A stretch of DNA of 50,864 bases from Parabacteroides distasonis (GTDB taxonomy: Bacteria > Bacteroidota > Bacteroidia > Bacteroidales > Tannerellaceae), in NCBI RefSeq assembly GCF_004793765.1, contig NZ_SRYM01000027.1, positions 1-50,864 on the forward strand, given 5' to 3'. Position numbers and translations under genes: made by a program. Below, one piece after another: positions 17,793 to 50,074 of this stretch. Position 1 is the first letter of the stretch, and the number at the start of each line of letters is the position of its first letter. Under the pieces are notes generated by a model, which saw nothing but the letters and a program-made list of their open reading frames with translations, was not told the origin of the DNA and did no database searches.

Positions 17793-17815
17793 GTCTTTCC
17801 TGCTATATAAGCCCA

Positions 17816-19641: not shown

Positions 19642-19668
19642 AATATTCGTTTTATTAAATAGAAAACC

Positions 19669-24279: not shown

Positions 24280-24360
24280 TATTTCTCGTGCTATATTAAT
24301 AGTACAAAGAAGTCCGGGAGAACTGGGATGTCATTAACTTTTATTAGTATATGATTTTAG

Positions 24361-24368
24361 TATCTTTG
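24361..24368 (+). promoter_or_regulatory. -7 promoter box for the ECF sigma gene
   Basis: TATCTTTG fits TAnnTTTG and is 21 bp before the ATG at 24390. It lies in the 110-bp divergent region shared with the leftward fecR gene. Confidence 0.45.
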
Positions 24369-24389
24369 CGAAACGATATGTGATGCTAA

Positions 24390-24932: not shown

Positions 24933-24968
24933 TTTATCTAGTTGCCTTGACTGAATCCTTTATGCCTG

Positions 24969-25053
24969 CTGCAACCCGCCTTGCAGTAGTACTGCACCGC
25001 ACGTGCAGTGACGCTGCAACAGGCGTGCAGTAACACTGCAAGGCGGGTTGCAG
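24969..25053. repeat. Four-unit palindromic repeat element, 22-bp period
   Basis: Four units of the form CTGCA-N7/8-TGCAG start at 24969, 24992, 25014 and 25036, separated by 5-nt spacers. Units 1 and 4, extended to 24969-24987 and 25035-25053, are perfect 19-bp reverse complements. Unit 2 has its own 7-bp stem (ACTGCAC/GTGCAGT). It lies between the sigma gene and the rightward fecR, and in RNA would form either one long hairpin or a chain of short ones. Confidence 0.85.
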
Positions 25054-25146
25054 TAATCTTACACATAAGTTTTGAGATTTTTTTATCATCCAATAGGGGG
25101 AAGAGAGCCGTGGCGTGTATTTATAAATAGAACAAGAATAATAAAC

Positions 25147-26118
25147 ATGAGCGAAGATACGAGAACGATATTGAAGAAGTTGATGAAGGATGCTCTGGAT
25201 GAGAAAGATCGGCAACATTTGTTGTACGACTCAAAGGTGGAAGAGCGCATGCGTTGCCAATGGGACGAGCCTGCGGATCGCGTGAATCCCGTGGTGGGAA
25301 ATCGTATGTGGAAACGAATCATAGCCCGGACAATGGCGACAAATGGTGTCCGTAAACTTTGGCTCTATAAGATTACGGCGATAGCCGCCTCCATGTTGCT
25401 GCTTTTAGGTGTAGGAAGCGTAGTTCATTGGTCTCATACGAAAGAAGATCAATATATATATGTAATGGCCTCCGGTGTCCGTTGCATAGAGTCGGTTTCC
25501 TTATCGGACGGCACGACCGTGAGAATGGGGCCGAATAGCCAATTGATCTACCCAAAGAGTTTCGATGGCAAGACCCGTGATGTGGAATTAAAAGGGCAAG
25601 CCTTCTTCGACGTAGCGAAAGACCGGGAAAGACCATTTACCGTGCATACCAAGAACATGGATGTAACGGCCTTGGGCACGGCCTTCGAGGTTTTCAATTA
25701 TGATTCCGAGAGCAGGTTGGAGACGATCCTGTTGAACGGTAAGGTGAAGATCGGTTTGGGAGATCCCAATGTGAAGAACAGGCATGAGGTGATATTGAAT
25801 CCGAATGAGATGTTGGTTTTCGACAAACAGGCGAATACCGTGAGAGTTAAGACGGTTAACGCCGAGGACTATTCGGCTTGGCGTAACGGTGTCCTCAGTT
25901 TTGAGAACGAACGCTTGAGTATGATCCTTACCCGTCTGGAGCCTTGGTTCGGGCGGAAGATAAAGTGCCCGAAAGAGATAGCGGAGAAATATCGGTTTAC
26001 GTTTAAGGTACGGGATGAGTCTTTGGAGCGAATCTTGTTTATGTTAAGCAATACGTCACCCATTAAATACAGAGAGAAAGACAATGAATATGAACTATAT
26101 ATAGAGGGAGATAAATGA
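25147..26118 (+). CDS. FecR-family anti-sigma factor
   Basis: The 323-residue product has a cytoplasmic N terminus, a membrane span (ITAIAASMLLLLGVGSVVHW, about 77-96), a FecR domain (SLSDGTTVRMGPNSQLIYP, GQAFFDVAK, HTKNMDVTALGTAFEV) and a C-terminal DUF4974-like domain (MILTRLEPWFGRKI, ILFMLSNTSPIKYREKD). The start at 25147 (MSEDTRTILKKL) follows an AT-rich leader. The longer frame from 25072 would begin just after the repeat element and has no conserved residues. It sits between the sigma gene and susC and probably relays the signal from that receptor's STN domain. Confidence 0.86.
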   Translation: MSEDTRTILKKLMKDALDEKDRQHLLYDSKVEERMRCQWDEPADRVNPVVGNRMWKRIIARTMATNGVRKLWLYKITAIAASMLLLLGVGSVVHWSHTKEDQYIYVMASGVRCIESVSLSDGTTVRMGPNSQLIYPKSFDGKTRDVELKGQAFFDVAKDRERPFTVHTKNMDVTALGTAFEVFNYDSESRLETILLNGKVKIGLGDPNVKNRHEVILNPNEMLVFDKQANTVRVKTVNAEDYSAWRNGVLSFENERLSMILTRLEPWFGRKIKCPKEIAEKYRFTFKVRDESLERILFMLSNTSPIKYREKDNEYELYIEGDK

Positions 26119-26290
26119 GTGTCTAATATTAAATTTTAAGAGATATGTTTGTTAACAGTTCTTGAGTCTAATAAAAAAACAGGAAGAAAAACTAGGTTTC
26201 TCCTCCTGATCAAATGTTCTTGACGGCAGGCGTTAGGAGTTGAGAGGCCGACACACCTGCTAATTTATTCATCAGAAACATTACAAAGTT

Positions 26291-29200
26291 ATGAAAAAAA
26301 TCAGAAAAGTAAACCGAGTCATGAAGATAAGTGCGTTGTTATCCTTGGCTTTCGCATGTACTGTATCCGCTTCTACCTATGGACAGAATTATAAGCTTTC
26401 CATGAATAAACAGGATTGCAGTATATCGGAAGTGCTAAAAGAAATAGAGAAAAATAGTGAGTACACGTTCTTCTTGAATGATAATCAAGTAAATGTAAAT
26501 AGGAAAACGAGTGTAAAAGCAAATAATGCCTCGTTAGAGGAGGTCTTAGAGCAAGCCTTGAAAAATACGGGATACCAATATGAGATTGTAGACCGGCAGA
26601 TTATAATTAAGTCAAAGAGTGTTTCAAGTGTCTCACATCCGAATGCCTTATTCCAGTCTTCGCCACGAAAGATTACCGGGCAAGTAAAAGATGCCTTGGG
26701 AGAACCCATTATCGGGGCGAATGTTGTCGTTAAAGGAACTACGAACGGAACGATTACGGATATCGATGGAAACTTCAGTCTGGAAGTACCGGACAATGCG
26801 ATCTTGGTAGTTTCTTATATCGGTTATACGGATCGTACGGTCGAGGTCGGTAATTCTTCGAAAGTAATGGTCAGTCTGTCCGAGGATACCCAGAAGTTGG
26901 ATGAGGTTGTGGTCGTAGGTTACGGAACGCAGAAGAAAGTGAATTTAACGGGAGCGATCTCCTCTTTGGATGCGGAGACATTGGAGAATCGCCCGATCAC
27001 CAACTCGACCCAAGCGTTGCAAGGTACGCAAGGTGTTTACGTAAATCAAGCGGGCGCTCAGCCGGGAGCGGACGGGGCGACGATTCGTATTCGTGGTCAG
27101 GGAACCTTGAACGATAATAATCCGTTGATTTTGGTGGATGGCATCAAGTTCCCGTTGGAAGCGGTAAATCCGAATGATATTGAGAGTATTTCCGTATTGA
27201 AAGATGCGGCTTCTTCCGCCATCTATGGTTCTCGTGCGGCGAATGGTGTTATCTTGGTGAAGACAAAAGGAGGAAAGAAAGGTAAGTTTACGGTAGATTA
27301 CAACAACTATTTCGGTGTGCAACAAGCCACTTATCTGCCGGATTTCGTGTATGATCCAATTGTCTTTATGGAGCAAAGAAACCAGGCGCAACGCAATGAG
27401 GGAAAACTTACGGTAGATTACTCAGATGAGTTGATCGAGGAGTATCGTCAAGGAATGAAGACGGATCCGATCATGTACCCGCAGAATAACTGGCTGGATA
27501 TCATGTATAACAACGCCTTTATCATGGAGCATAACATGCGTTTCTCAGGAGGTGATGATAAATATACGTATTCTGTATCTTTAGGCTATGGCGATCAGAA
27601 CGGAGTGTTACGTGGTACGGACGCAAATAAGTATACATTGGCCGTGAATACGACCGCGCAGGTAAATAGCCGCTTGAAGATTGGCGCTAATATCAATGCG
27701 CATTACCAGATTCATAACGCTCCGGTATCCGGTGTAGCAAACTTGGTAGAGATGACTTATAAAGCGCAAGCTTTCCACCCGACTTATACCGCTGATGGTC
27801 GTTATGCGGATACATTCATTCGTACTCCGGGACACAATATTTATCGCCATCCATTAGCTCTGGCTGATGAGGGCGAGAATAAACATAAAGCCTTGCGTAT
27901 GTTGGCGAATTTGTCCGCCGAGTATAAGTTGCCGTTTGATATCGTGTATAACTTGAACGTGGGTTTGAATAAGTATGATTATCTACAATCTCGTTTCGCT
28001 CCACAGGTATATGAGTATCAATTGAAGACAAATGAGGAGAAGAAGATCGTTTTTGACGGGCAAAATACAAGAAATGCCTATAAGAAAGACAGGAATGATT
28101 TGTCTGCTACCATATTCAATACGTTGTCTTGGGGAAAGAAATTCAATGATGTTCACGATGTGAAGATCTTGGCCGGTTACAGTTATGAGAGCGTTGACAA
28201 GACGGAATTCTCAGGGAAAATAGAGGGTTTCTTGGGTAATGATCTGCATGAGTTAGGAGCTGGATCTAGTAATTCTTTAGCGGATGGAACTTCTTCCAGA
28301 TCGGTTTTGATGTCCTATTTCGGTCGTGTGAATTATGGGTTCAAGGATCGCTATTTGCTGGAAGGTAATTTCCGTTATGATGGTTCTTCTCGTTTTGCGA
28401 AGGGTAATCGTTGGGGTGTATTCCCATCTTTCTCAGCCGGCTGGCGTTTGAGCGAGGAGGAGTTTATGAAAGATCTTCCTTGGGTATATAATTTGAAATT
28501 ACGTGCTTCGTGGGGACAACTCGGTAATGAGCGTATCGATTTATTCCGTTATGTGGACTTGATGAATCTGGATGCTAAATATTCATTGAATGGTGAGATC
28601 CAGACAGGCGCAGCTGTTACGGCATATAATGATCCGAACATTACTTGGGAGACTACGACGATGACGAACGTCGGATTGGATGCTTCTTTGTTTAATGGTA
28701 ACTTCGATTTCTCATTTGAGTATTTTGATAAACGTACATCTGATATCTTGAGAAAGGTTATTTTGCCTCAACAGGTGGGTAGCTTGGATGGCCCGATCCG
28801 TAATATTGGTGAGGTTAGCAATAAAGGTTTCGAGTTGAATTTAGCCTATCGGAATAATATCGGGGATTTCCGTTATGAGGTAAATGGAAATATGACCTTT
28901 ATCAAGAATAAGATCGTAAGCCTGAAAGATCAGACCATTATTGATGGAATGTTTATTTTGGAGGAAGGAAAGCCTATCGACTCTTATTATATGTTGCATG
29001 CGATCGGAATCTTCCAATCAGAAGAGGAGATCAAGAACAGCCCGTATCAGACAGCCGCTACTAAACCGGGTTATTTGAAGTTCGAGGATGTGAATGGAGA
29101 CGGTAAGATCACCGAGGATGACCGTAAGATCTGTGGAGGTGTTATTCCGAAGATCACGTATGGTTTCAATATCAATTTGGGATATAAGAACTTCGATTTG

Positions 29201-29635
29201 GCAGCGTTCTTCCAAGGTGTTACGGATGTCTATACATATGGAGACCGTATCGGTGCTACCCCATTGTGGTTTGGTTGCGGTTTGCCGGAGCAATGGCTGA
29301 CGGATGCTTGGACTCCGGAACGTGGAACGAGTGCTACGTTACCTATCTTGACTACGTATGAGGGGTGCTTGAATGAGAACTTCCGTACGAATGACTTTTG
29401 GCTGAGAAATGCTTCCTATTTGCGTTTGAAGAACTTGCAGTTGTCTTATAATGTCCCGGCTTCTTTCTTGAAAAACGGTGTTATCAAGAGACTGAAGATC
29501 TTTGCTAATGCGCAAAATTTGTTTACCTTCTCTCCGATGAAAGATTTTGATCCGGAGAAAGATTTGAAGGGAAGTAATTGGTATGCTTATCCATCTGTTC
29601 GGACATATACGGCAGGTGTTAATGTTACATTTTAA
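26291..29635 (+). CDS. SusC/RagA TonB-dependent receptor with STN domain
   Basis: The 1114-residue receptor starts with a signal peptide (cleavage near ASTYGQ) and an STN domain (DCSISEVLKEIEKNSEYTFF). The carboxypeptidase-like repeat (GQVKDALGEPIIGANVVVKG), the TonB box region (KLDEVVVVGYGTQKK), the plug (SVLKDAASSAIYGSRAANGV) and the barrel ending TYTAGVNVTF follow. It imports an oligosaccharide across the outer membrane with the SusD protein encoded 14 bp downstream. The sulfatases further down suggest a sulfated glycan. The STN domain and the adjacent fecR/sigma pair indicate substrate-induced expression. Confidence 0.94.
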   Translation: MKKIRKVNRVMKISALLSLAFACTVSASTYGQNYKLSMNKQDCSISEVLKEIEKNSEYTFFLNDNQVNVNRKTSVKANNASLEEVLEQALKNTGYQYEIVDRQIIIKSKSVSSVSHPNALFQSSPRKITGQVKDALGEPIIGANVVVKGTTNGTITDIDGNFSLEVPDNAILVVSYIGYTDRTVEVGNSSKVMVSLSEDTQKLDEVVVVGYGTQKKVNLTGAISSLDAETLENRPITNSTQALQGTQGVYVNQAGAQPGADGATIRIRGQGTLNDNNPLILVDGIKFPLEAVNPNDIESISVLKDAASSAIYGSRAANGVILVKTKGGKKGKFTVDYNNYFGVQQATYLPDFVYDPIVFMEQRNQAQRNEGKLTVDYSDELIEEYRQGMKTDPIMYPQNNWLDIMYNNAFIMEHNMRFSGGDDKYTYSVSLGYGDQNGVLRGTDANKYTLAVNTTAQVNSRLKIGANINAHYQIHNAPVSGVANLVEMTYKAQAFHPTYTADGRYADTFIRTPGHNIYRHPLALADEGENKHKALRMLANLSAEYKLPFDIVYNLNVGLNKYDYLQSRFAPQVYEYQLKTNEEKKIVFDGQNTRNAYKKDRNDLSATIFNTLSWGKKFNDVHDVKILAGYSYESVDKTEFSGKIEGFLGNDLHELGAGSSNSLADGTSSRSVLMSYFGRVNYGFKDRYLLEGNFRYDGSSRFAKGNRWGVFPSFSAGWRLSEEEFMKDLPWVYNLKLRASWGQLGNERIDLFRYVDLMNLDAKYSLNGEIQTGAAVTAYNDPNITWETTTMTNVGLDASLFNGNFDFSFEYFDKRTSDILRKVILPQQVGSLDGPIRNIGEVSNKGFELNLAYRNNIGDFRYEVNGNMTFIKNKIVSLKDQTIIDGMFILEEGKPIDSYYMLHAIGIFQSEEEIKNSPYQTAATKPGYLKFEDVNGDGKITEDDRKICGGVIPKITYGFNINLGYKNFDLAAFFQGVTDVYTYGDRIGATPLWFGCGLPEQWLTDAWTPERGTSATLPILTTYEGCLNENFRTNDFWLRNASYLRLKNLQLSYNVPASFLKNGVIKRLKIFANAQNLFTFSPMKDFDPEKDLKGSNWYAYPSVRTYTAGVNVTF

Positions 29636-29649
29636 ATAAAGGTATAGTT

Positions 29650-31155
29650 ATGAGACATAAAATATATAATATGATATGTGTAGCTGCCGCATGTATGTGC
29701 TTGGCTGCTTGCGATAGCTGGCTGGATGTAGATCCTTCCGATCAGTATTCTACGGACACATTCTGGAAAACGAAAGAACATGCCCATGCGGGATTGATGG
29801 GATGTTATAATGCGTTGATGCCTTGGCGTTCTTTACATACAATGGAGTTTGATATGTTGACTGCCAATGCAATGCCTTATAATGAGGCAAATGGTACTCA
29901 AGCTATAGGAAAAGGAGAACATCTGTCTACTACGGCGTTAATTGGTTCTTTGTGGAAGAACTGTTATACGGGTATTGGGCGTGCGAACACGTTTATAGCG
30001 AATATGCCTACCGTAGAAATGGAGGAAAAGGCTAAAAATGAGATGATCGGAGAGGCTAAATTCTTGCGCGCTTTTTTCTACTTGAATATGGTAGATAAAT
30101 TTGGAGGGGCTCCTCTGATCACAGAAGCTCCTAATGCGGATACACAAGCGGAATTGCCGAGAAATTCCAAGGAGGAAGTAGTGGATCAAATTCTGAAGGA
30201 TTTGGATGAGGCTGCGGCTGTTTTACCTAAGAGTTATTCAGGATCGGACTTAGGCCGTGTTACGAAAGGTGCGGCTTTGGCTTTGAAAGCACGTGTTTTA
30301 TTGTATAATTCTCGCTGGGTTGAGGCGGCTAAAGCAGCTAAGGAGGTGATGGACTTGGGAGAATATAAGTTGTTTGATGATTATCGTCACTTCTTTAGTG
30401 AGGCAAATAAACACAATTGTGAGGTAATTTTCAATATTGAGACGAGGATACCTGAGTTCTCTACGAACTATGACCAAGATATTTGGCGTTTAAATCGTCC
30501 TGCTCCTTTAAAAGAATTAGTTGATACATATTTGTGTATAGATGGCAAGACGATAGAGGAATCGCCACTTTATAATCCGGCTCAACCTTATGAAAATCGA
30601 GATCCTCGTTTGTTAAAGTCTATTGTTTGTATTGGTTATCCTTATTTGGGAATGACAATTACTAAAGAAAATGTAGCGACTACTGGGTTTGGTGTAAAGA
30701 AATATACCTCTTATGAAGATGATGTAACGATTCCTTTAGTAGAACGTTCCGCTTTTAACTTTATCTTGATTCGTTATGCGGAAGTTTTATTAACGTATGC
30801 TGAGGCTCAGAATGAGGCAAATGGACCAGATCAATCAGTTTATGATGCTATTAATCAGTTGCGTAAACGTCCGGATATCAATATGCCGGAAGTACCAAAA
30901 GGTTTGACGAAAGACCAAATGCGTGAGGTAATCCGCCGTGAACGCCGTATCGAGTTGGCCTTTGAAGGACTCTACTATTCGGATATCTTGCGCTGGAAAA
31001 CCGCCGAGAAAGAGAATAATGGAATGATGCATAATTATGAGGGAATAGAAGTCGTGAAACGTTCTTTTAATCCGAAACGAGATTATTTATGGCCGATCCC
31101 TTATAACCAAACAGTCTTGAACCCTAATTTGGAGCAAAATCCGAACTGGGATTAA
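29650..31155 (+). CDS. SusD/RagB-family glycan-binding lipoprotein
   Basis: The 501-residue product is a lipoprotein (lipobox CLAAC) followed by DSWLDVDPSDQYSTDTFWKT, the usual SusD start. The TPR-like framework is recognisable at EAKFLRAFFYLNMVDKFGGA and GAALALKARVLLYNSRW. The conserved C-terminal part is IRRERRIELAFEGLYYSDIL and YLWPIPYNQTVLNPNLEQNP. SusD caps the SusC barrel and captures glycan at the surface. It is translated with susC and followed by a strong hairpin before the sulfatases. Confidence 0.94.
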   Translation: MRHKIYNMICVAAACMCLAACDSWLDVDPSDQYSTDTFWKTKEHAHAGLMGCYNALMPWRSLHTMEFDMLTANAMPYNEANGTQAIGKGEHLSTTALIGSLWKNCYTGIGRANTFIANMPTVEMEEKAKNEMIGEAKFLRAFFYLNMVDKFGGAPLITEAPNADTQAELPRNSKEEVVDQILKDLDEAAAVLPKSYSGSDLGRVTKGAALALKARVLLYNSRWVEAAKAAKEVMDLGEYKLFDDYRHFFSEANKHNCEVIFNIETRIPEFSTNYDQDIWRLNRPAPLKELVDTYLCIDGKTIEESPLYNPAQPYENRDPRLLKSIVCIGYPYLGMTITKENVATTGFGVKKYTSYEDDVTIPLVERSAFNFILIRYAEVLLTYAEAQNEANGPDQSVYDAINQLRKRPDINMPEVPKGLTKDQMREVIRRERRIELAFEGLYYSDILRWKTAEKENNGMMHNYEGIEVVKRSFNPKRDYLWPIPYNQTVLNPNLEQNPNWD

Positions 31156-31177
31156 TTCTTGGATAAATTAAAAACTG

Positions 31178-31220
31178 TTATCTTTGAAGTGCCAAACATA
31201 GGATGGCACTTCAAAGATAA
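31178..31220. other. Perfect 17-bp stem-loop between susD and the sulfatases
   Basis: 31178-31194 (TTATCTTTGAAGTGCCA) pairs without mismatch to 31204-31220 around a 9-nt loop. There is no T run on the + side; on the - side the hairpin would be followed by TTTTT. It may be a processing or stabilising stem, or a partial terminator that separates susCD from the sulfatase genes. Confidence 0.65.
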
Positions 31221-31239
31221 TATATCAATAAATAATATC

Positions 31240-32670
31240 ATGAAGAATAAACTAATGTTACTGACGGCCGCCTCAGCTTTTTCAATGGCAGGCATAGCCG
31301 CTGATTACACGAATATCGTCCTGATTAATTTGGATGATGTGGGGTACGGAGATTTTTCTTTTAATGGGGCTTACGGATATACCACTCCGAATATCGACAA
31401 AATGGCGGCGGAAGGCGTTCGTTTTACCCACTTCTTGGCGGGACAGCCGATCAGTGGAGCGTCTCGTGCCGGCTTGTTGACCGGTTGTTATCCGAATCGT
31501 ATCGGTTTCGCTGGTGCTCCGGGACCGGATTCGAACTATGGAATTCATCCCGATGAGATGACGATTGCCGAGGTATTGAAACAGAAAGGATATAGTACCG
31601 CTATCTTCGGTAAATGGCATTTAGGCAGCCAAAAAGAGTTCCTTCCCTTGCAAAATGGCTTCGATGAGTATTATGGCTTGCCGTATTCTAACGATATGTG
31701 GCCTTTCCATCCGCAACAAGGTGAGATTTTTAATTTTCCCGATTTACCGACTTATGATGGAAATGAGATTATCGGTTATAATACGGACCAAACACGGTTG
31801 ACTACGGATTATACCACCCGTTCTGTTAATTTCATCAAGAAGAATAAGAATAAGCCTTTCTTCTTGTATCTGGCCCATAATATGCCGCATGTTCCATTGG
31901 CTGTCTCCGATAAGTTCAAGGGAAAGAGCGAGCAAGGCTTGTATGGGGATGTGATGATGGAGATCGATTGGAGTGTAGGTGAGGTACTCAAGACATTGCG
32001 TGAGCTTGGTTTAGAGGATAATACATTAGTGATCTTGACTTCCGATAACGGACCATGGACCAATTATGGAAATCACGCTGGTTCCGCCGGTGGTTTGCGG
32101 GAGGCTAAGGCGACTACCTTTGACGGAGGAAATCGTGTTCCTTGTATCATGTATTGGAAGGGGAAGACCCAGCCGGGCACTACTTGCAATAAGTTGGCTT
32201 CTAATATCGACCTTCTGCCTACTTTCGCCGAGATCAGCCAGGCGCCGCTGCCTACTCGTAAGATCGATGGCGTTAGTATCTTATCATTGATAGAGGGCAA
32301 GAAAGATGCGAATCCTCGTGAATCTTTTGTCTATTATTATAACAAGAATGACTTGGAGGCTGTCACGGACGGTATGTTTAAGCTAGTATTCCCTCATAAG
32401 TATGTTACTTACGGGGCTTATGAGCCGGGTAATGACGGTCAGCCGGGTAAGTTGACGAATTTGGAGATCATGAAACCTGAAATGTATGACTTGCGTCGTG
32501 ATCCGGGAGAGCGTTATAATGTGATCACCCAGTATCCTGAGGAAGCTGCGAAATTGATGAGGATCGCCAACCTGAAACGTCATGAGTTAGGGGATAACCT
32601 AACGCGCGTAAAGGGAACGGAGCGTAGGGAACCGGGTCTAGTACAAGGGAAAAAACGTCATGACCTATGA
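31240..32670 (+). CDS. Serine-type sulfatase (arylsulfatase A-like)
   Basis: The 476-residue S1-type sulfatase has a signal peptide (MKNKLMLLTAASAFSMAGIA). The metal-binding start is NIVLINLDDVGYGDFSFNGA. The maturation motif is Ser72-Gly-Ala-Ser-Arg76 followed by AGLLTGCYPNR, a variant of C/S-X-P/A-S-R that uses Ser and has Ala for Pro. FGKWHLGSQK, HNMPHVPLAV and LTSDNGPWTNYG complete the active site. A radical-SAM maturase (anSME) is needed to form the formylglycine; none is in the window. The ATG at 31240 is preferred over 31159, which would run through the hairpin. Its stop overlaps the next ATG (ATGA). Confidence 0.9.
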   Translation: MKNKLMLLTAASAFSMAGIAADYTNIVLINLDDVGYGDFSFNGAYGYTTPNIDKMAAEGVRFTHFLAGQPISGASRAGLLTGCYPNRIGFAGAPGPDSNYGIHPDEMTIAEVLKQKGYSTAIFGKWHLGSQKEFLPLQNGFDEYYGLPYSNDMWPFHPQQGEIFNFPDLPTYDGNEIIGYNTDQTRLTTDYTTRSVNFIKKNKNKPFFLYLAHNMPHVPLAVSDKFKGKSEQGLYGDVMMEIDWSVGEVLKTLRELGLEDNTLVILTSDNGPWTNYGNHAGSAGGLREAKATTFDGGNRVPCIMYWKGKTQPGTTCNKLASNIDLLPTFAEISQAPLPTRKIDGVSILSLIEGKKDANPRESFVYYYNKNDLEAVTDGMFKLVFPHKYVTYGAYEPGNDGQPGKLTNLEIMKPEMYDLRRDPGERYNVITQYPEEAAKLMRIANLKRHELGDNLTRVKGTERREPGLVQGKKRHDL

Positions 32671-34241
32671 AACAGTCGATCATTAGTATCGGAGTGACTG
32701 CCTGTTGTCTTTCGGGAAACGGGCAGTTTCTCTTTGCCGCCGATAAACCGGCGCAAGAGGAACGTCCCAATATATTGTTTATCCTATCGGATGATCATAC
32801 TTCCCAATCGTGGGGTATTTATGGGGGTGTGTTGGGCGAGTATGCCCGCAACGAGAATATCCGCCGCTTGGCTGCTGAGGGTTGCGTGTTGGATAATTGT
32901 TTTTGTACGAACTCGATCTCTTCTCCGAGTCGTGCGGCGATCTTGACCGGGGCTTATAGTCACGTGAACGGTGTTTACACATTAAGTGATTCTTTTGATT
33001 CGGAACAGGATAATATCGCCAAGCAAATGCAAGCGGGAGGTTATCAGACCGCTTTGGTCGGTAAATGGCATCTGAAAACGCAACCGAAAGGTTTCGACTT
33101 CTATTCCGTGTTTCATGACCAGGGCGAGTACCGGGACCCTACTTTTATAAATTGTACGGAACCTTGGCCGGGGGAACGCAATTTCGGGGAGCGGGTACGC
33201 GGTTTTTCTACGGATATCGTGACGGATAAGGCGATCCGCTGGATGAAAGAGGCCGATAAGAACCGGCCTTTCATGATGTGTTGTCATTTCAAGGCTACAC
33301 ACGAGCCTTGGGATTTCCCGGAACGGATAAGGCATTTGTATGACGGTGTTGTTTTCCCGGAACCGGAGAACTTATTTGATTGGGGGGCAGAGACGAATGG
33401 ACGTACTTTCTCCGGACAACCTTTGGAGGAATTAGCCCGTCGTTGGGATGTGGCATCACAAGATCCTGATAAATGGTGGTGCCGGTATCCGGAGTTGCCC
33501 TTTACGACGAGGGGGATGCACCGATCTGCCGCTCGCGGTGCCGCTTACCAGAAATTGGTGCGAGACTATTTGCGTTGCGGGGCTACGATTGATGATAATA
33601 TCGGGAAGTTATTGAAAGTGCTGGACGATATGGGAATCGCCGATAATACGATCGTGGTGTACGTATCCGACCAAGGTTATTTCTTAGGTGAGCATGGTTT
33701 CTTCGATAAGCGTATGATGTATGAGGAGTCTCTACGTATGCCTTTCGTGATCCGTTACCCGAAAGAGATCCCGGCGGGGACTCGCAATAAGGATATGATC
33801 TTGAACGTGGATTTCGCTTCTTTGCTGGCGGATTATGCGGGCGTGAAAACCCCGAAGGAATCGCAGGGTCATAGTTTCCGCGATAATCTGAAAGGAAATA
33901 CTCCTAAGGATTGGCGTAAGGAGATGTATTATCGTTATTGGACCCAACATTCGAACCGTCCGGCTCATATGGGTATCCGTAATGAACGGTATAAATTGAT
34001 GTTCTTCTATGGCGACCGTCTGAACATGACCGGTTCGGAGGATAAGACCACTACGCCCGCATGGGAGTTTTACGACCTTCAATCCGATCCTCGTGAGAAT
34101 CACAACGCTTACAACGATCCCCAATACGCCGAGATCATCCGGAAAATGAAGGAGGAGATGCTGAAGCTGCGGAAAGAGGTCAAGGATGAGGACACGAATA
34201 CTCCTAGGATGAAGGAGATTATGGATGCCTTTTATTGGTAA
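32667..34241 (+). CDS. Serine-type sulfatase
   Basis: The 524-residue S1-family sulfatase has a signal peptide and opens with RPNILFILSDDHTSQSWGIY, holding the calcium-binding aspartates. The maturation motif is Ser85-Ser-Pro-Ser-Arg89 in NSISSPSRAAILTGAYSH, again serine-type. VGKWHLKTQPKGFDF, CHFKATHEPWDFPE and YVSDQGYFLGEHGFFDKRMM complete the family pattern. It removes sulfate from glycans in the periplasm or on the surface. Its ATG overlaps the upstream stop by 4 bp, so the two sulfatases are translationally coupled and may act on successive linkages. They differ clearly in sequence and are not a recent duplication. Confidence 0.92.
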   Translation: MKQSIISIGVTACCLSGNGQFLFAADKPAQEERPNILFILSDDHTSQSWGIYGGVLGEYARNENIRRLAAEGCVLDNCFCTNSISSPSRAAILTGAYSHVNGVYTLSDSFDSEQDNIAKQMQAGGYQTALVGKWHLKTQPKGFDFYSVFHDQGEYRDPTFINCTEPWPGERNFGERVRGFSTDIVTDKAIRWMKEADKNRPFMMCCHFKATHEPWDFPERIRHLYDGVVFPEPENLFDWGAETNGRTFSGQPLEELARRWDVASQDPDKWWCRYPELPFTTRGMHRSAARGAAYQKLVRDYLRCGATIDDNIGKLLKVLDDMGIADNTIVVYVSDQGYFLGEHGFFDKRMMYEESLRMPFVIRYPKEIPAGTRNKDMILNVDFASLLADYAGVKTPKESQGHSFRDNLKGNTPKDWRKEMYYRYWTQHSNRPAHMGIRNERYKLMFFYGDRLNMTGSEDKTTTPAWEFYDLQSDPRENHNAYNDPQYAEIIRKMKEEMLKLRKEVKDEDTNTPRMKEIMDAFYW

Positions 34242-42157: not shown

Positions 42158-43198
42158 ATGAGCAGAAGCACTTTCAGAGTATTATTCTATCTCAAACGCA
42201 ATGCCCCGAAAAAGAACGGGCTTGTGCCTGTGATGTGCCGCATCACCGTAAACGGCAAGATTTCCCAATTCAGTTGCAAACTGGATGTAGAGGAAAAGTT
42301 ATGGAATGTCAGTCTCGGCAGAATGTCGGGAAGAAGCATTGTTGCACAAGAAACCAACCGAATGTTGGATAAAATCAGAATAGGCATCAACAAGGCTTAT
42401 CAAGAAATTATGGATAGGGATGGTTATGTGTCTGCAGAGAAGGTCAGAAATGCTTTCTTGGGTATGGGACAAAACCATAAAACCCTGCTTGCTGTATTTC
42501 GACAGCACAATGAAGATTACGCCAGACAAGTGGGCAAGATGAAAAGCCAACGCAGTTATTGGAAGTATTGCACCGTTTACGACCATTTGGAAGAATTCAT
42601 CAAGCATCGCTACAAGGTAAGCGATATTGCCTTGCGTGAGCTGTCCCCGGCATTCATCACCGACTTCGAGTTGTTCCTCCGTACTGAGAAGAATCATTGC
42701 ACCAATACCGTATGGTCGTATATGATGCCGTTCCGCAGTATTATATATACAGCCATCAACAACGGTTGGTTACAACGCGACCCGTTTTATGCTTATCGTA
42801 TTACAAAGGAAGAAACCAAAAAAGGATTCTTAACCAAAGAAGAAATCACGATGCTTATCAACGGAACATTCAAGAAGAAAAGTTACGAACTGATTAGAGA
42901 CCTTTTCATTTTCTGTTGTTTCAGCGGATTGAGTTGGAGGGATATGTATAATCTCACAACCGACAATTTACAAACATCATTCGATGGGCATTTATGGATT
43001 AAGACCAATCGACAAAAGACGGGAACGGAAACCAATATCCGATTGCTCGACACTGCCAAACATATCATCGAGAAGTATCAAAGTCTGGCGGAAGGCAATA
43101 AATTGTTGCCTGTACCCTGTTATGCCAATTGCCGACATGGGATAAAGGCTGTGGCTAAACTATGCGGAATTCAAAAGAACGTCTGTTGGCACTCGTAG
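42158..43198 (+). pseudogene. IntDOT-like tyrosine integrase, C-terminally truncated
   Basis: The 346-codon frame starts like Bacteroides ICE integrases (STFRVLFYLKRNAPKKNGLV, then MCRITVNGKISQFSCKLDVE). It has the SAM-like core-binding domain (YWKYCTVYDHLEEFIKHRYK) and the start of the catalytic domain (FLTKEEI, IFCCFSGLSWRDMYNL, IKTNRQKTGTETNIRLL). It stops at CWHS followed by TAG, inside the expected HxxR box. The box II Arg and the nucleophilic Tyr, normally about 60 residues further on, are missing, and no frame downstream restores them. It is therefore predicted to be catalytically dead. Relatives are about 400 residues. Confidence 0.82.
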
Positions 43199-43821: not shown

Positions 43822-44898
43822 ATGAACAAGAAGCAAGAGGACAGAACCATTATTTTGGATAATGGAGAGATTGCTAAAGCGACTTTTCCTGTTGTCGTTT
43901 CTGCAAGTCGAAGCACTGATATACCAGCATTTTATTCCGATTGGTTTTTTGAACGTCTGCAGAAAGGATATTCAGCATGGACCAATCCATTTAATGGGAA
44001 GAAGAGTTATGTGTCTTATGAAGATACTCAGTTCATTGTCTTTTGGTCGAAGAATCCCCGTCCGCTTCTTAATCATATTGACTTCTTAAGAGAGAGAGGT
44101 ATTGGATGTTATATACAGTACACGCTCAATGATTATGAGGAAGAGAAGTTAGAACAGGGCGTACCTCCGCTTGTTGAACGTATTGAGACTTTCAAACTGC
44201 TTGTTGCCAAGCTTGGGATGGGTGCGGTTGTATGGCGATTTGACCCCCTTATTCTTACAGACAAGATTGACATGGATAAGCTTTTGCGGAAGATAGAATA
44301 TATAGGCGACCAACTTAGAGGATATACCGAAAAACTTGTTTTCAGCTTTGCAGATATAGTTTCATACCGCAAGGTTAAAGCTAATCTTGAACGTAGCCAT
44401 GTTAATTATATTGATTGGGCAAATGAGCAAATGATAGAATTTGCGGAGAAGCTCGTTCATCTTAACAAAGTGAAAGAATGGAACTATATTCTTGCTACTT
44501 GTGGTGAAGCTGCTGACTTGGATGGAGTGGAACACAATCATTGCGTGGATGACCGTCTTATGGTGCGTTTCGGATATAAGTCTAAGAAATTGATGGATTT
44601 TCTTGGTGCGAAAATAATAAATTCTAAACATAGTTTATTCTCTGAGATGGATACAATGGAAATACCACAAGGTGCAATCTCACTTGACAATGGCACATTT
44701 GCAACCATTAACAAGAGCAACAGAGACAAAGGACAACGTATAGCATGTGGCTGCATGAAGAGCAAAGACATTGGCGAATACAACACATGCCCGCACTTAT
44801 GTGAGTATTGCTATGCCAATGCCAGCAAGGAAATGGCTGTTGCCAACTGGCGGCGGCACCAATTGAATCCTAACAGTGAAACGATAACTGGAAAATAA
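43822..44898 (+). CDS. DUF1848-family protein with C-terminal cysteine cluster
   Basis: The 358-residue product matches DUF1848: VVVSASRSTDIPAFYSDWF near the N terminus, FIVFWSKNPRPLL, CYIQYTLNDY, GAVVWRFDPLIL, LVFSFADIVSYRK and ILATCGEAADLDGV. The C terminus has five cysteines, Cys309-x-Cys311 and Cys323-x3-Cys327-x2-Cys330 (within NTCPHLCEYCYANASKEM). The last three copy the spacing of a radical-SAM [4Fe-4S] motif, though they stand at the wrong end of the protein. An iron-sulfur or zinc site is likely; biochemical function is unknown. It has a ribosome site (AGGGTGA) and is followed, 1 bp later, by the methyltransferase-helicase gene. Confidence 0.8.
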   Translation: MNKKQEDRTIILDNGEIAKATFPVVVSASRSTDIPAFYSDWFFERLQKGYSAWTNPFNGKKSYVSYEDTQFIVFWSKNPRPLLNHIDFLRERGIGCYIQYTLNDYEEEKLEQGVPPLVERIETFKLLVAKLGMGAVVWRFDPLILTDKIDMDKLLRKIEYIGDQLRGYTEKLVFSFADIVSYRKVKANLERSHVNYIDWANEQMIEFAEKLVHLNKVKEWNYILATCGEAADLDGVEHNHCVDDRLMVRFGYKSKKLMDFLGAKIINSKHSLFSEMDTMEIPQGAISLDNGTFATINKSNRDKGQRIACGCMKSKDIGEYNTCPHLCEYCYANASKEMAVANWRRHQLNPNSETITGK

Positions 44899-44899
44899 G

Positions 44900-47800
44900 A
44901 TGTACGAAGACAAGATAAGGAAGTATCATCCTCTCACAATAGAGCATATAATCCAGATGGCCGAGGCCGACCTTCCTCTAAAATATCGTTCAATGCCATG
45001 GACTTATCAAGACGAGGCAGGCAGAAATCTTGAACGTGGCACGGCGATACTCGAAACAGAGGAACTCTGTTCTGCCTATATGGCGGCCTATGGTCGTATG
45101 CATTGCCACAAACTCAACTATGCTTTAGACAAATCACAAGGGAAAGGAAACTTCCCTTATGGTGAAGTGCGGAATGGCGTTGAGATTTTCGACTGGGGAT
45201 GTGGGCAAGGACTAGGCTCTTTGGCTGTTATTGAAAATCTGAGAAGGGAGGGACTGCTGTCTTGCCTTAAAAAGATAACACTGGAAGAACCTTCTGACAT
45301 AGCACGTGAAAGAGCTCTGTTACATGTGAAGCAGGCACTTGATGATGATTCCTGCACAGTGGTAGAGACTTGTTCCGAATATCTTCCTTCGGACGATGCT
45401 TCGATTAGAGCTATTCAAAGCATCAATGTTGAACAGCCTTGTGTTATTCATATACTTTCAAATGTTCTCGATATTGAGTCCGTAAGCCTTAAAGGGATTT
45501 CCAAACTGATAACCTCTTCTGGGGCAAGGCATATTGTTCTGTGTGTCGGCCCTGCAAATCTCAATGAAAGCCGAATCAATGCCTTTAAGAATTACTTCAG
45601 AGATAATGGCATACGGGTATTTACTGACTTTAGAGAAACCTACTTCGGCAAACATTCGAATGGAAAGGCCTATGGATGTCTCATCAAGAGTTTTATATTC
45701 TCGCTAAAATCCCAAGAAAGCATTCTCCACAAATACAATTGTTTTGCCCCATTGCAATTCTTTGCATGCTATGCAGAGACGATGCCTGAGAAAAGAATCT
45801 CCAATGAAGGTGCTTTTGAGATAATGGCTCCGTTTGACATGACTGTGCGTAGAGGTTTGAATCCCGTTTTTGCACTTGTCAGCAACCTTATATCAAGAGG
45901 TATCCCGACGTACGCAAGTGAGCGCATTACAACTGCTCTTATGCAGCGAGAACAGACTGAGAGGGAAAAGGCACTAAAGGTAATAGCCCGAATACAGAAG
46001 ACCATTATAGAGGCGTTGATAACCGGACGGATTGACCGTTTGTCTGAAGAATGGAAAATCCTTATCATAGATGATTGTACAAACATAGCCAATATCGCCG
46101 TTGAGGATTTTGCAGAGCTCTATGGGAATCTCATTGCAATGACAGAGAAATACGATGGCATGCTGTTGCCGAAAGTGAGTGTAGTTGATGTCCGTTCTGC
46201 AGCTCCTGACGAAGTTTATGATATGGTTATCGACGTGTCGGTTGACAAGTTTGCAGACCCTGAGCATGTGGCATTCTCAAAGTACAGGGCTAAGAATGAT
46301 TGCTATTTCATTGTCCGCTCTTCCGAATCCGTCTACGAACCACGCATATTGTACACAACGGAACGTATTGAATATAAGTCGCTTGCGAAAAAGGAACCCA
46401 GCGGGAAATACATTCAGAACGAGACAACAGTGTCTCATCTTCGTTATTTCTTACAACTTATTTTCAGGAAACAGGATTTTCGTCCTGGTCAATTACCTAT
46501 TCTCAATAGAGCCTTGAGGTTGAAGAGTGTAATTGGTTTGCTGCCGACAGGTGGAGGAAAATCTCTGACTTACCAATTGGCTGCAATGCTTCAACCCGGC
46601 GTAACATTGGTTGTCGACCCATTGAAAGGCTTAATGAAAGACCAATACGATGGCCTGCTCAAGACTGGCATTGATTGTATATCGTATATCAATAGCGATG
46701 TTACGATGTACCATGAGGAGGCCCATAGGCGTGAGCAGGCCCTTACTGGTTCTCAGATACAAATTATGTTTCTCTCCCCTGAACGGTTAAGTATCTATCG
46801 CTTTAGGGAGGTTCTGCGCTCCATGCGCGAGTCAAACGTCTATTTCGCATATGGAGTTATAGACGAGGTGCATTGTGTCTCGGAGTGGGGGCATGATTTC
46901 CGGCTTGCCTATCTGCATTTAGGTCGTAATCTATACAATTATGTGTTGCCAAAGGAGGTAGAAGGTACGGACAATCACATTTCTCTCTTTGGCTTGACTG
47001 CAACGGCTTCGTTCGATGTGTTGGCAGACGTGGAGCGTGAACTCTCCGGCAGTAATTCATATTCTTTGGAAGATGATGCAACGGTCAGATTCGAGAACAC
47101 CAATCGGCTGGAATTGCAGTATAATGTTTATCCTATTGATGCTACAAACGCATCAAAGGCATGGGAAGTCGGAGACCTTAAGGAAACGGCTCTCATTGAT
47201 GCAATCAATGACGCAACTGAAAAAATACAGGAGATACAAAATGAAGATGATATAAGTTATATAAAGGATCATTTCATTGAAAGAGAGAACCTTACTGATA
47301 GCGAAAAGGTATCTGCAATCAGGAATACGAATCTCTACACACACGTAGATAACTGCTGGTGCAAAGCGCAATACACAGATACTGCTGGAATTGTATTTTG
47401 CCTTCGCAAATCAGATAATGAGTATACGAACCTAAGTGTCCCCTCTGTCTCCAGGAAACTTAGGGCATACCGTGTCAGTAATTTCTCCACCTACAAAGGC
47501 GGGGACGATACTTCATGCCAAGATGATTTTCTGCTTGGGAACACACAGCTCATGGTGGCCACAAAAGCCTTTGGTATGGGTATTGACAAATCTAATGTAC
47601 GCCTTACTTTCCATCTGAATTTCCCCAGTTCGTTGGAGTCCTTTGTACAGGAGGCAGGACGTGCAGGAAGAGACCGAAAAATGGCATTGGCAACCATAAT
47701 GTATTCGCCTAAAAAATTTTGGAGTAAAAATGCCAGAACAGATGAATGGAAAGAATACTCTGCTGACTATATAAACAATAAGTTTTTCTATGACAGCAAT

Positions 47801-49036
47801 TTCCTTGGCGAAGACTTTGAGCTGTATGTGATGGAATTACTCATGAGCAGGTTATACGTGCAGATAAGTAACGAGGAAATTCCTGGTATAGAAACTCGCA
47901 AAGTTGGACAAAGTAAAGGTATACTTCAATTCATCAACAGATACTCTAAAGGCACTATTCTTACATATTATGTGTCATATAATGAAGATAATTATGTCCT
48001 TGATGAATATAATAAATGTCTGTATGAAAAGAACATGCCATTGTTCAATACTCCAAATGCCAAAAACCTAAAAACTAAGCAAGGTTTCAAATTTGTATCC
48101 AATTTCGGGTCTACCAATTACAAAGATGCTATCCAAAAGGCTATATACCGAATGTGTGTGATTGGGCTGATCGACGACTTCACCGAAGATTATTCGGCAC
48201 AAATATTTCGTATCACAACAATCTGTCAGGACAGTTCCTGCTACTACGAACACCTCCGTTCATATTATCGTAAGTACTATTCCGAAGACAGGGTAGAAAC
48301 GATGATAGATGAAGTTATGCAGATGGCTAAAAAAGAAGATGTCATCATGGCTTGTCTAAAACATCTTACAGCCTTTGTTTACAGAAGTATTGCCGACAAG
48401 AGAGCCCGAGGTATTTTGGATATGGAGCAATTCTGCAACATGGCTATCACCTCAAAAAAGGATTGGAAGGAAACAAATGAAGACTTAAAGGACTTCATCT
48501 ATTACTACTTCAATTCTAAATATGCCAGGGAAGGATTTGTTACATACGACGCAAGTGTGAAAGCGGAAGTTCCTTTTTCCCTAAAGGATGACACCGATAG
48601 CGACAAGCATTCAGAAGCGGGGACCACGAGTTTTGAGCTGGTCAAGAAATATATGCGGGTAGTTGATGCAGACATTGTAAATAACGATGCCCAGAAAGAC
48701 AATGTGAAGCACCTGCATGGTGCTGTCCGCCTTATTCGTCGGGCTGCTGCAGAAATGAATCCTGTCCTCAATCTGCTGAACATTTTCTGTATACTCTTCC
48801 TTGGTCAACAAGATAATGAAATGTTAGAAGAGGAAATTTGTAACGATTATGAGGAAGTCATTGAATACTATACTTCAAAAAACAACTTAATGTTACTTGA
48901 TGAGTATGCAGATCTGCTCATAAGTCATGCAGCAATTGATGAATCCAGGAAGGATTATCTTCAAAAACTTTCCTCTTATATTCAATTAAAAAGACATCTA
49001 AATAATTTAAAAAACATAGTATCCAAATACCAATAA
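44900..49036 (+). CDS. Methyltransferase-like/RecQ-type helicase fusion protein
   Basis: The 1378-residue protein has at least three parts. Residues 50-300 contain a class I methyltransferase-like motif I (EIFDWGCGQGLGSLAVIENL, Asp98-Gly104). Residues about 515-930 are a RecQ-like superfamily 2 helicase: Q-motif region FRKQDFRPGQ, Walker A LLPTGGGKS with Lys554, motif Ia VVDPLKGLMKDQYDG, Walker B DEVH (655-658) in DEVHCVSEWGHDFR, motif III GLTATAS, and motifs V-VI KAFGMGIDKSNV and QEAGRAGRDRK with arginine fingers Arg921 and Arg924. About 120 residues are inserted between motifs III and IV. The C-terminal 420 residues match no domain I know; RQC and HRDC are not evident. It is the middle gene of a three-gene unit with 1-bp gaps. 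Confidence 0.85.
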   Translation: MYEDKIRKYHPLTIEHIIQMAEADLPLKYRSMPWTYQDEAGRNLERGTAILETEELCSAYMAAYGRMHCHKLNYALDKSQGKGNFPYGEVRNGVEIFDWGCGQGLGSLAVIENLRREGLLSCLKKITLEEPSDIARERALLHVKQALDDDSCTVVETCSEYLPSDDASIRAIQSINVEQPCVIHILSNVLDIESVSLKGISKLITSSGARHIVLCVGPANLNESRINAFKNYFRDNGIRVFTDFRETYFGKHSNGKAYGCLIKSFIFSLKSQESILHKYNCFAPLQFFACYAETMPEKRISNEGAFEIMAPFDMTVRRGLNPVFALVSNLISRGIPTYASERITTALMQREQTEREKALKVIARIQKTIIEALITGRIDRLSEEWKILIIDDCTNIANIAVEDFAELYGNLIAMTEKYDGMLLPKVSVVDVRSAAPDEVYDMVIDVSVDKFADPEHVAFSKYRAKNDCYFIVRSSESVYEPRILYTTERIEYKSLAKKEPSGKYIQNETTVSHLRYFLQLIFRKQDFRPGQLPILNRALRLKSVIGLLPTGGGKSLTYQLAAMLQPGVTLVVDPLKGLMKDQYDGLLKTGIDCISYINSDVTMYHEEAHRREQALTGSQIQIMFLSPERLSIYRFREVLRSMRESNVYFAYGVIDEVHCVSEWGHDFRLAYLHLGRNLYNYVLPKEVEGTDNHISLFGLTATASFDVLADVERELSGSNSYSLEDDATVRFENTNRLELQYNVYPIDATNASKAWEVGDLKETALIDAINDATEKIQEIQNEDDISYIKDHFIERENLTDSEKVSAIRNTNLYTHVDNCWCKAQYTDTAGIVFCLRKSDNEYTNLSVPSVSRKLRAYRVSNFSTYKGGDDTSCQDDFLLGNTQLMVATKAFGMGIDKSNVRLTFHLNFPSSLESFVQEAGRAGRDRKMALATIMYSPKKFWSKNARTDEWKEYSADYINNKFFYDSNFLGEDFELYVMELLMSRLYVQISNEEIPGIETRKVGQSKGILQFINRYSKGTILTYYVSYNEDNYVLDEYNKCLYEKNMPLFNTPNAKNLKTKQGFKFVSNFGSTNYKDAIQKAIYRMCVIGLIDDFTEDYSAQIFRITTICQDSSCYYEHLRSYYRKYYSEDRVETMIDEVMQMAKKEDVIMACLKHLTAFVYRSIADKRARGILDMEQFCNMAITSKKDWKETNEDLKDFIYYYFNSKYAREGFVTYDASVKAEVPFSLKDDTDSDKHSEAGTTSFELVKKYMRVVDADIVNNDAQKDNVKHLHGAVRLIRRAAAEMNPVLNLLNIFCILFLGQQDNEMLEEEICNDYEEVIEYYTSKNNLMLLDEYADLLISHAAIDESRKDYLQKLSSYIQLKRHLNNLKNIVSKYQ

Positions 49037-49037
49037 T

Positions 49038-49445
49038 ATGATTGACGAAAAAATAAACAAAACTCTAACCGAATTAGAAGTTAATCTTCGGAATATAGAA
49101 TCTGCTCGCAGACAAGTTGAAAATACAATCAACTCATACGATGGATTAAAAACGATAACGGCAAATTATGTAAAGAGCCTTTCTACTATAAAAGACAACT
49201 TGGATGCACTTATTGCCACTATTGGAGAGGATTATAAGAATAATACCGAATCGTTTAGACAAGATTGCAAAGAAATCGAAACTTCATGTAATTCCTTAGT
49301 TTCAAAGATCAACGATGCTGTAGATAATATAAAAGGTGAAGTGTCTTCACAAATAGACAAATTCCATAAAAAGTTCATGTATGTAATTATATGTAACGTG
49401 ATTGTCTGGTTTACCATACTAATACTCTTCTTTATAAACAAATGA
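49038..49445 (+). CDS. Small coiled-coil protein with C-terminal membrane anchor
   Basis: The 135-residue product is almost entirely predicted helix with heptad-like spacing (INKTLTELEVNLRNIESARR, SLVSKINDAVDNIKGEVSSQ). It ends in one hydrophobic span (FMYVIICNVIVWFTILILFF, about 113-132) plus NK. No signal peptide is present, so it should be tail-anchored with the coiled coil in the cytoplasm. It starts 1 bp after the helicase stop and is surely part of that operon. Small membrane-anchored partners of this kind are often effectors or sensors in phage-defence operons; that role is inference. The operon ends here, and integrase debris starts immediately on the other strand. Confidence 0.75.
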   Translation: MIDEKINKTLTELEVNLRNIESARRQVENTINSYDGLKTITANYVKSLSTIKDNLDALIATIGEDYKNNTESFRQDCKEIETSCNSLVSKINDAVDNIKGEVSSQIDKFHKKFMYVIICNVIVWFTILILFFINK

Positions 49446-49648: not shown

Positions 49649-50074
49649 TCAACCTTGTCTTGATTGCTCCCACTTGGCATACATCTCCCTCGAAAGCTCC
49701 ACAATCTCCCGGCTCAGTTTCACAAGGTCGATGGTATGTTTCTCCAGCTTGTAGAGCAACGCCATCGCCTTCTTCTCCGAAAAGTGGATGCGCAACTCTT
49801 TAACGACCTGATTGTAGTTCGTACCGATGGCACGGAACTGGGCGTGGAAGTCCGACAGTTTGGTGTAGTAGTCCACCAGCGTCTTGTCCACTTTCAGCAC
49901 CTTGAACTTCTGCCCGAAGAAATGCGCCTTCAGAAAGACGGCTTTCGCATACACGTTCGATTCCTCGTACATCGTCAGGAACCTGTTCCATTCCACATCG
50001 TCGAAGCGCACCATCACGCAGTGCGTCTTCGGATTCAACTTGGGATTTCTCCCGTACTTGCTCTTCTTTTTCAT
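49649..50074 (-). CDS. mobA: MobA-like conjugal mobilisation protein
   Basis: The 141-residue product matches the small MobA proteins of Bacteroides conjugative elements: a basic N terminus (MKKKSKYGRNPKLNPKTH), a ribbon-helix-helix-like start (CVMVRFDDVEWNRFLTMYEE), and the conserved core KVDKTLVDYYTKLSDFHAQF and IGTNYNQVVKELRIHFSEKK. These proteins help the relaxase recognise oriT. The relaxase gene (mobB) usually follows directly downstream. Here the space is taken by an integrase fragment, so the mobilisation operon appears cut. An oriT-like palindromic region lies immediately upstream. Confidence 0.8.
   Translation of the reverse strand: MKKKSKYGRNPKLNPKTHCVMVRFDDVEWNRFLTMYEESNVYAKAVFLKAHFFGQKFKVLKVDKTLVDYYTKLSDFHAQFRAIGTNYNQVVKELRIHFSEKKAMALLYKLEKHTIDLVKLSREIVELSREMYAKWEQSRQG

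Follow-up and report, generated by a model that had tools for sequence, protein, structure and literature searches.

A three-gene module with a DUF1848 protein, a methyltransferase-RecQ helicase fusion and an anchored coiled coil in Parabacteroides distasonis: a candidate anti-invader system

RqlH combines a RecQ helicase with a further catalytic domain and is genotoxic unless an adjacent partner restrains it (PMC4670107). We have analyzed a module of three genes in a 50,864-nucleotide stretch of Parabacteroides distasonis DNA (assembly GCF_004793765.1, contig NZ_SRYM01000027.1; hereafter, the window), encoding a DUF1848 protein (gene 1), a predicted methyltransferase fused to a RecQ-type helicase (gene 2), and a coiled-coil protein with a C-terminal transmembrane segment (gene 3). 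Like RqlHI and PsyrTA, which we take to be the same kind of system, the module pairs a RecQ-type helicase with an additional, predicted catalytic domain in one protein, and the PADLOC PsyrT model aligns with the helicase core of gene 2 (E 3.1e-49). However, the extra domain of the module is a predicted N-terminal methyltransferase whereas theirs is a C-terminal PRTase, the partner is DUF1848 or AlkB rather than RqlI or PsyrA, and the module adds a membrane-anchored coiled coil. No PRTase was found in gene 2 in Pfam and NCBIfam scans, and no PsyrA model is among the matches listed for genes 1 and 3. Since the PRTase and the PsyrA partner are both absent, we rejected membership in PsyrTA.

The module also has features in common with other described systems. 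In DarTG (PMC5179494), a toxin that modifies bases is paired with an enzyme that erases the modification, a logic that is only proposed for the module; the module would use methyl transfer and radical S-adenosylmethionine (SAM) or 2-oxoglutarate (2OG) chemistry coupled to a helicase, whereas DarTG uses ADP-ribosylation. One relative locus (L066) adjoins DarT and a macrodomain gene. In humans, the 3'-5' helicase ASCC3 feeds single strands to ALKBH3 (PMC7608686), and the module recalls this pairing of a 3'-5' helicase with ALKBH3 in that the AlkB protein of one family locus, L077, best matches ALKBH3. ASCC3, however, is Ski2-like and not RecQ, it serves human housekeeping repair, and the available part of the same source mentions no methyltransferase partner. 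The helicase core of gene 2 resembles DpdF of the 7-deazapurine Dpd system (best PADLOC E 5e-73). We rejected membership in that system because the best stretches of the 14 matching DpdF models lie over the helicase, PDLC02868 alone starting at residue 353, and because the NCBIfam DpdF model gives gene 2 only 112 bits vs a cut-off of 550; the other Dpd genes were not sought. Gene 1 matches RTasDUF1848, placed by PADLOC under DRT (E 2.1e-36), but none of the three genes encodes a reverse transcriptase.

The first-pass annotation had not recognized the trio as a named system, and comparison with the PADLOC 2023 and NCBIfam models likewise gives it no name: in PADLOC 2023 the components of no single system were matched, gene 1 matching only RTasDUF1848, gene 2 only helicase-type models, and gene 3 weakly, with coiled-coil-like models. 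DUF1848 and PF08902 go unmentioned in the literature searched, outside which subscription papers and preprints largely lay. Among the matches listed from a search on this or similar combinations (preprints and most subscription papers again outside), no title or abstract opening describes the trio, and a survey of phosphorothioation and defense (PMC10853773) contains neither RecQ nor AlkB in the part of its text available. The comparison suggests that the module is an undescribed variant of helicase-based anti-invader systems, and writer-eraser chemistry, if shown, would make it a new class. Our preferred interpretation, held tentatively and a little short of probable, is that the module acts against invaders: DNA exposed by the helicase would be methylated, and DUF1848 or AlkB would erase the damage on self, a chemistry that we infer. 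The data support the unit itself, the predicted folds, the coupling of methyltransferase and eraser, the replacement by AlkB and the defense-rich flanks.

Conservation of the three-gene unit

The three genes are intact, lie on the + strand and are separated by gaps of 1 bp, exactly as first annotated (Table 1). Genomes were scanned with an alignment of 176 residues from the C terminus of gene 2 only, a seed that is uninformative on neighbors, and 29 loci were returned, with host labels that are nearly all Bacteroidales and include one Bacillota metagenome bin. A DUF1848 gene lies upstream in each of the 27 loci having sequence upstream of gene 2, and a gene 3 match lies downstream in each of the 26 with downstream sequence, at L035 only as a 47-residue piece. 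Among the 25 complete triples, window included, genes 1 and 2 lie -4 to +16 bp apart in 24 triples, L017 differing by an extra 180-residue open reading frame (ORF), and genes 2 and 3 lie -4 to +24 bp apart in 24, L034 being the exception. That the three genes form a real unit, beyond chance, is well supported.

Relatives are rare: at E <= 1e-100 they occur in 4/395 genomes of the class, and at E <= 1e-80 relatives of gene 2 occur in 8/393 genomes of the order, the window's own genome counted each time. DUF1848, present in 22/149 genomes of the order, lies mostly away from gene 2; in the window's own genome, a further DUF1848 gene lies away from the module (C122:58291-59205, L112). The first-pass annotation had viewed the three genes as a dedicated set, a view to be abandoned if homologs occurred mostly alone or the genes were unlinked elsewhere. 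Neither holds for genes 2 and 3 or for the clade bearing the methyltransferase domain, and in their case the proposal stands; it does not extend to DUF1848, which is common alone when set against the rarity of gene 2 relatives.

Predicted activities of the three proteins

Pfam places DEAD at residues 529-708 and Helicase_C at residues 830-925 of gene 2; residues 1-510 and 945-1378 are uncovered by Pfam or NCBIfam among the matches listed. The helicase motifs GGGKS (K554), DEVH and QEAGRAGRD are intact, and GGGKS, DEVHCVSEWGHDFR and QEAGRAGRD are conserved, so that the marks of a RecQ-type superfamily 2 (SF2) helicase are present (Walker A, a DEAH-type motif II with the RecQ loop, and motif VI). 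The best PDB match of the helicase is RecQ 4tmu (E 4.9e-51), and gene 2 misses the NCBIfam cut-off of 640 bits for recQ, with 244, and narrowly that of 220 bits for recQ_fam, with 213. The conserved C-terminal region is winged-helix-like, by eye only. In the N-terminal domain, DWGCGQG at residues 98-104, E130 and N188/D191 are invariant in 29 sequences. The model of this domain, with a Rossmann-like fold and a glycine-rich motif I, predicts a class I methyltransferase, and METTL17/Rsm22 is the nearest solved fold. Gene 2 is thus consistent with the earlier description of a large helicase with an added methyltransferase-like domain. A search with its residues 1-520 gave 960 homologs at E <= 1e-3 among 7998 scored candidates.

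Several relatives of gene 2 vary in architecture. An insertion with a 591-residue ORF, possibly a transposase, interrupts it at L018:3213-10918, and the window's methyltransferase region is matched twice in the 1798-residue protein of L022:5528-10924, which suggests a duplicated N-terminal domain. ORFs at L012, L014, L027 and L030 have ~130-310 additional N-terminal residues ahead of the methyltransferase domain. A cysteine-rich stretch after helicase motif VI is found in L032, L034, L037 and L038, reduced in L040 and L041, and absent from the window type.

Gene 1 matches DUF1848 (PF08902) across the whole profile (E 1.9e-85), which bears out its first assignment. Its CX3CX2C motif (C323, C327, C330) lies near the C terminus, a placing that is unusual for the radical SAM superfamily. 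This motif is invariant in the 27 module DUF1848 sequences and is present in all 17 further DUF1848 ORFs picked from 19 loci. RlmN, Cfr and Elp3 are among the closest folds to the gene 1 model, and DUF1848 is predicted to be a radical-SAM-like barrel enzyme, with a [4Fe-4S] cluster and SAM cleavage that are only putative. A sequence search of solved structures with DUF1848 gave nothing meaningful (best E 0.45).

RlmN, Cfr and Elp3 act on RNA, and ALKBH3 also acts on RNA. These properties, the fold likeness of gene 1, and the position of METTL17/Rsm22 on the mitochondrial small ribosomal subunit (PDB match 8om2) are counted for a very doubtful alternative in which the methyltransferase and DUF1848 or AlkB would act on tRNA or phage transcripts. 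The helicase would then serve as a sensor, activation would methylate RNA and arrest growth, and the eraser would keep the system off. However, gene 2 has a DNA motor, of the RecQ type, and the flanks of the loci hold DNA-targeting systems.

In gene 3, a hydrophobic C-terminal segment starts at residue 115 (mean Kyte-Doolittle value 2.72), in agreement with the proposed tail-anchored coiled coil. All 34 gene 3 proteins examined have a hydrophobic C-terminal end (19-residue mean 2.1-3.3), and the alignment reveals a conserved SARxQV motif. The reduced gene 3 at L035:10925-11068 may be a decaying copy.

If the module acts against invaders in the way that we prefer, the methylation of nucleic acid, the nature of the lesion, toxicity, the antidote role and the step at the membrane, all of which we infer, might be arranged as follows. 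The RecQ-type motor of gene 2 would load on and unwind invading or aberrantly replicating DNA, and the fused N-terminal methyltransferase would methylate the exposed single strand and so block replication; methylation at N1 of adenine or N3 of cytosine would suit the partner. Gene 1, as a predicted radical-SAM enzyme, would undo lesions on host DNA and thereby act as the antidote, a job that an ALKBH3-like dioxygenase may take over or share in oxygen-respiring hosts. Gene 3 may oligomerize or regulate the motor at the membrane.

Association of the methyltransferase domain with DUF1848 and AlkB

A profile search found relatives in 12/395 genomes of the phylum. The constant core of the fetched loci is a helicase of ~1190-1800 residues followed directly by a coiled-coil gene. 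Many family helicases have a DUF559/MTES_1575-like PD-(D/E)XK nuclease domain in the region ahead of the helicase; when six helicases were scanned with Pfam, it was over the cut-off in L067 (E 1e-6) and below the cut-off at E <0.01 in L037 and L064. By BLAST, the nuclease is present in L032-L035, in L037-L039 and in 14 of 17 loci that lack the methyltransferase domain, and is undetected in the window protein, L011-L031, L040, L041 and L077. DUF1848, AlkB or both lie upstream in all 31 methyltransferase-bearing loci having upstream sequence and in none of the 17 lacking the domain, 14 of which have at least 1 kb of upstream sequence. The core of the wider family is, then, a RecQ-like helicase, often with a DUF559-like nuclease, and an anchored coiled coil, and DUF1848 or AlkB accompanies the methyltransferase domain. 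The methyltransferase-bearing helicases form one group (support 100/99 in a 41-row tree), a clade that added the domain to this core. It is as if the methyltransferase may have replaced the nuclease as effector, judging from the window-type and AlkB-type loci with a methyltransferase and no detected nuclease. One relative lacking the methyltransferase domain (L042:10201-19014) forms an operon-like series together with genes for a YgjP metallopeptidase and HsdR.

At L040 and L041, an AlkB-type 2OG-Fe(II) oxygenase takes the place of gene 1 (PF13532, E 4.3e-32 and 6.2e-33). L077 has AlkB (PF13532, E 2.4e-32) and DUF1848 in tandem ahead of gene 2, with HsdM and HsdS downstream; the best PDB match of this AlkB is human ALKBH3 (E 1.4e-41), followed by ALKBH2. 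All three retain the HxD...H and RxNLTFR motifs for iron and 2OG binding that mark the AlkB family (by eye). In the same tree, L077 groups with L040 and L041 (100/98) inside the methyltransferase group, beside the long DUF1848 forms, a pattern that fits gain of AlkB beside DUF1848 and then loss of DUF1848. Heme-copper oxidase is a marker of aerobic respiration. Among the 30 host genomes tested, it is above cut-off in all three AlkB hosts and in none of the 27 others, which comprise the window's genome and 26 DUF1848-locus genomes, one with an oxidase match below cut-off. Taken together, the coupling of methyltransferase and eraser, the likeness of the replacement to ALKBH3, and the single strands that a RecQ helicase produces speak for a reversible N-methylation of strands so exposed, which the fused domain would write and DUF1848 or AlkB would erase.

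The combination of DUF1848 and the methyltransferase also recurs with other motors, as three of 19 inspected DUF1848 genes outside the module (L116, L124 and L122) indicate by having a methyltransferase-domain homolog nearby. At L116, the DUF1848 gene is followed directly by a stand-alone 253-residue methyltransferase (E 9e-32 to the fused domain), and this pair is without RecQ. L124:460-5992 (genome G790) is a four-gene operon of DUF1848, a superfamily 1 (SF1, UvrD-like) helicase, a 2CompART ADP-ribosyltransferase-domain protein and a 517-residue methyltransferase-bearing protein, and is a candidate for a separate conflict system using the same pair. At L122:3973-8544 (genome G732), DUF1848 and a YhcG PDDEXK nuclease are followed by a methyltransferase, split across two ORFs, that adjoins an SF1 helicase. 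In two other DUF1848 loci, L115 and L113, the gene adjoins an ATPase/helicase-like gene and a ~700-residue gene, with an HsdM-like gene close in L115 (by eye); the only matches of the 708-residue L115 protein are zinc-ribbon models below cut-off.

An unlikely alternative is that DUF1848 or AlkB removes base modifications that protect phage DNA and so opens it to attack by the helicase, together with the nuclease of the long forms or a neighboring restriction enzyme, the methyltransferase marking self DNA. An eraser could act on foreign DNA, the nuclease of L032-L035 and L037-L039 would suit this role, and the flanks hold type I, type IIG, McrC, GmrSD and BREX genes. Left unexplained, however, are the coupling of eraser and methyltransferase, given that the eraser is absent from the 17 relatives lacking the methyltransferase, 14 of them with a detectable nuclease, and the L116 pair, itself devoid of a nuclease domain.

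The anti-invader interpretation can also be put in a broader form, which we consider rather unlikely at present. The module would then represent a new class of immunity by reversible base methylation, in which a helicase-borne methyltransferase would write replication-blocking lesions on invader strands and a dedicated eraser would guard self. DUF1848 would be an oxygen-independent, radical-SAM counterpart of AlkB, for which it would be exchanged as the module passes between anaerobic and aerobic hosts, and DUF1848 and the methyltransferase would make up a portable cassette of toxin and antidote, found also on SF1 helicases with an ADP-ribosyltransferase-domain protein (L124) or the YhcG nuclease (L122).

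Genomic setting and meaning of the module

Co-occurrence with defense islands, one of the checks suggested with the first-pass annotation, was assessed with PADLOC families at E <= 1e-20. The flanks of ten wider-family loci (of 23, chosen for long contigs) matched 212 families among 98 ORFs, and those of 20 window-type loci matched 104 among 126 ORFs (at least 130 residues, within 4.5 kb), vs 5 among 133 ORFs of control regions. The controls are 133 of 142 ORFs, nine of L140 being left out, and were drawn from the genomes of the wider-family set, not the window-type set; family counts are redundant per protein, individual families being known from the 25 commonest. Named neighbors include BrxA, BrxC, HsdR, HsdM/HsdS, GmrSD, McrC, Abi_2, and DarT with a macrodomain protein, and a type IIG gene is likewise among the flanking genes. 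That the setting of the module is defense-rich is well supported.

Several observations weigh against the anti-invader interpretation. The DUF1848 model is middling (pLDDT, predicted local distance difference test, 75), with its cysteine region (301-336) <50, and Foldseek alone places DUF1848 mostly among assorted TIM barrels, with weak matches only. METTL17/Rsm22-like domains may bind SAM without methylating. The methyltransferase-bearing proteins are one clade, so that the coupling inside it may trace to one event, and the pattern of AlkB and oxidase must likewise be read as one event, to which no statistic is attached because the AlkB loci are one lineage. The L032-L039 clade has methyltransferase and nuclease together, and the former is therefore no simple replacement of the latter. 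No methyltransferase homolog is near 16 of the 19 DUF1848 genes inspected outside the module, and several window-type loci lie among housekeeping genes (by eye, among the matches listed). DUF1848 distances track those of gene 2 weakly (Mantel r 0.32-0.34, or 0.43-0.50 in the short clade), at a correlation (0.32-0.34) that exceeds all but 0-1 of 2000 shuffles; gene 3 distances track them closely (0.76-0.82; short clade 0.58-0.82). This difference is as expected if DUF1848 is exchangeable.

Some of these points bear on a further alternative, quite improbable in our judgment, that the module is an alkylation-repair operon on mobile DNA in which the helicase would open the duplex, the ALKBH3-like or radical-SAM enzyme would repair, and the methyltransferase domain would be a SAM-binding regulator. 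A METTL17/Rsm22-like fold need not methylate, modules are also seen among housekeeping genes, and the ALKBH3-ASCC3 pair offers a precedent (PMC7608686). This alternative is at odds, however, with the defense-rich flanks, the patchy spread (8/393 genomes of the order), the membrane-anchored partner, and the nuclease carried by most relatives that lack the methyltransferase.

Table 1. Features of the module and its neighbors in the window
Feature	Position	Strand	Basis
Gene 1: DUF1848 protein, 358 residues	43822..44898	+	PF08902
Gene 2: methyltransferase-RecQ helicase fusion, 1378 residues	44900..49036	+	Pfam, alignment, PDB matches
Gene 2 residues 11-270: predicted class I methyltransferase domain	44930..45709	+	Fold prediction, alignment
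Gene 2 residues 285-513: linker domain	45752..46438	+	Alignment; hosts nuclease insertion in relatives
Gene 2 residues 515-939: RecQ-type SF2 helicase core	46442..47716	+	Pfam, motifs, PDB match
Gene 2 residues 1075-1378: highly conserved C-terminal region	48122..49033	+	Alignment
Gene 3: coiled-coil protein, 135 residues, C-terminal transmembrane segment	49038..49445	+	Hydropathy, alignment
Outside module: tyrosine-recombinase ORF, integrase remnant	42158..43198	+	PF17293, PF13102 above cut-off
Neighbor: mobilization protein MobC_2 / Bacteroid_MobA	49649..50074	-	Pfam, NCBIfam matches

The module had been described as cargo of a mobile element, and this is plausible. An integrase ORF lies upstream, and MobA/MobC-like and DUF3408 genes (Pfam, NCBIfam) lie downstream on the opposite strand. 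The tyrosine-recombinase ORF matches Pfam in its arm and core-binding domains and looks truncated because no catalytic domain was found above cut-off in Pfam; the ends of the element cannot be closed because the contig and the window have the same extent. The suggested role in plasmid control found no support: at E <= 1e-100 and 1e-60, no relative of the window protein was found among 72,556 plasmid and 50,697 phage records, and we rejected this role since plasmid relatives were not found. When two distant relatives, L041 and L042, served as queries, the only matches were plasmid records of Haliscomenobacter and Salinibacter. Viral contigs gave zero loci for gene 2 or its C-terminal alignment, and mobilization genes were the sole matches in a DNA-level plasmid search. 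Elsewhere in the window, positions 15990-34241 are probably a polysaccharide utilization region (by eye), with SusC/SusD-like outer-membrane genes, sulfatase-like genes and anti-sigma/sigma pairs.

The exchange of AlkB for DUF1848 offers a testable hypothesis on DUF1848, as an anaerobic dealkylase or lesion-reversal enzyme. If this is true, strict anaerobes would have a route to reverse N-alkyl damage without oxygen, a methyl writer-eraser pair would be added to bacterial immunity beside DarTG, and Bacteroides researchers would have a compact module of ~5.6 kb.

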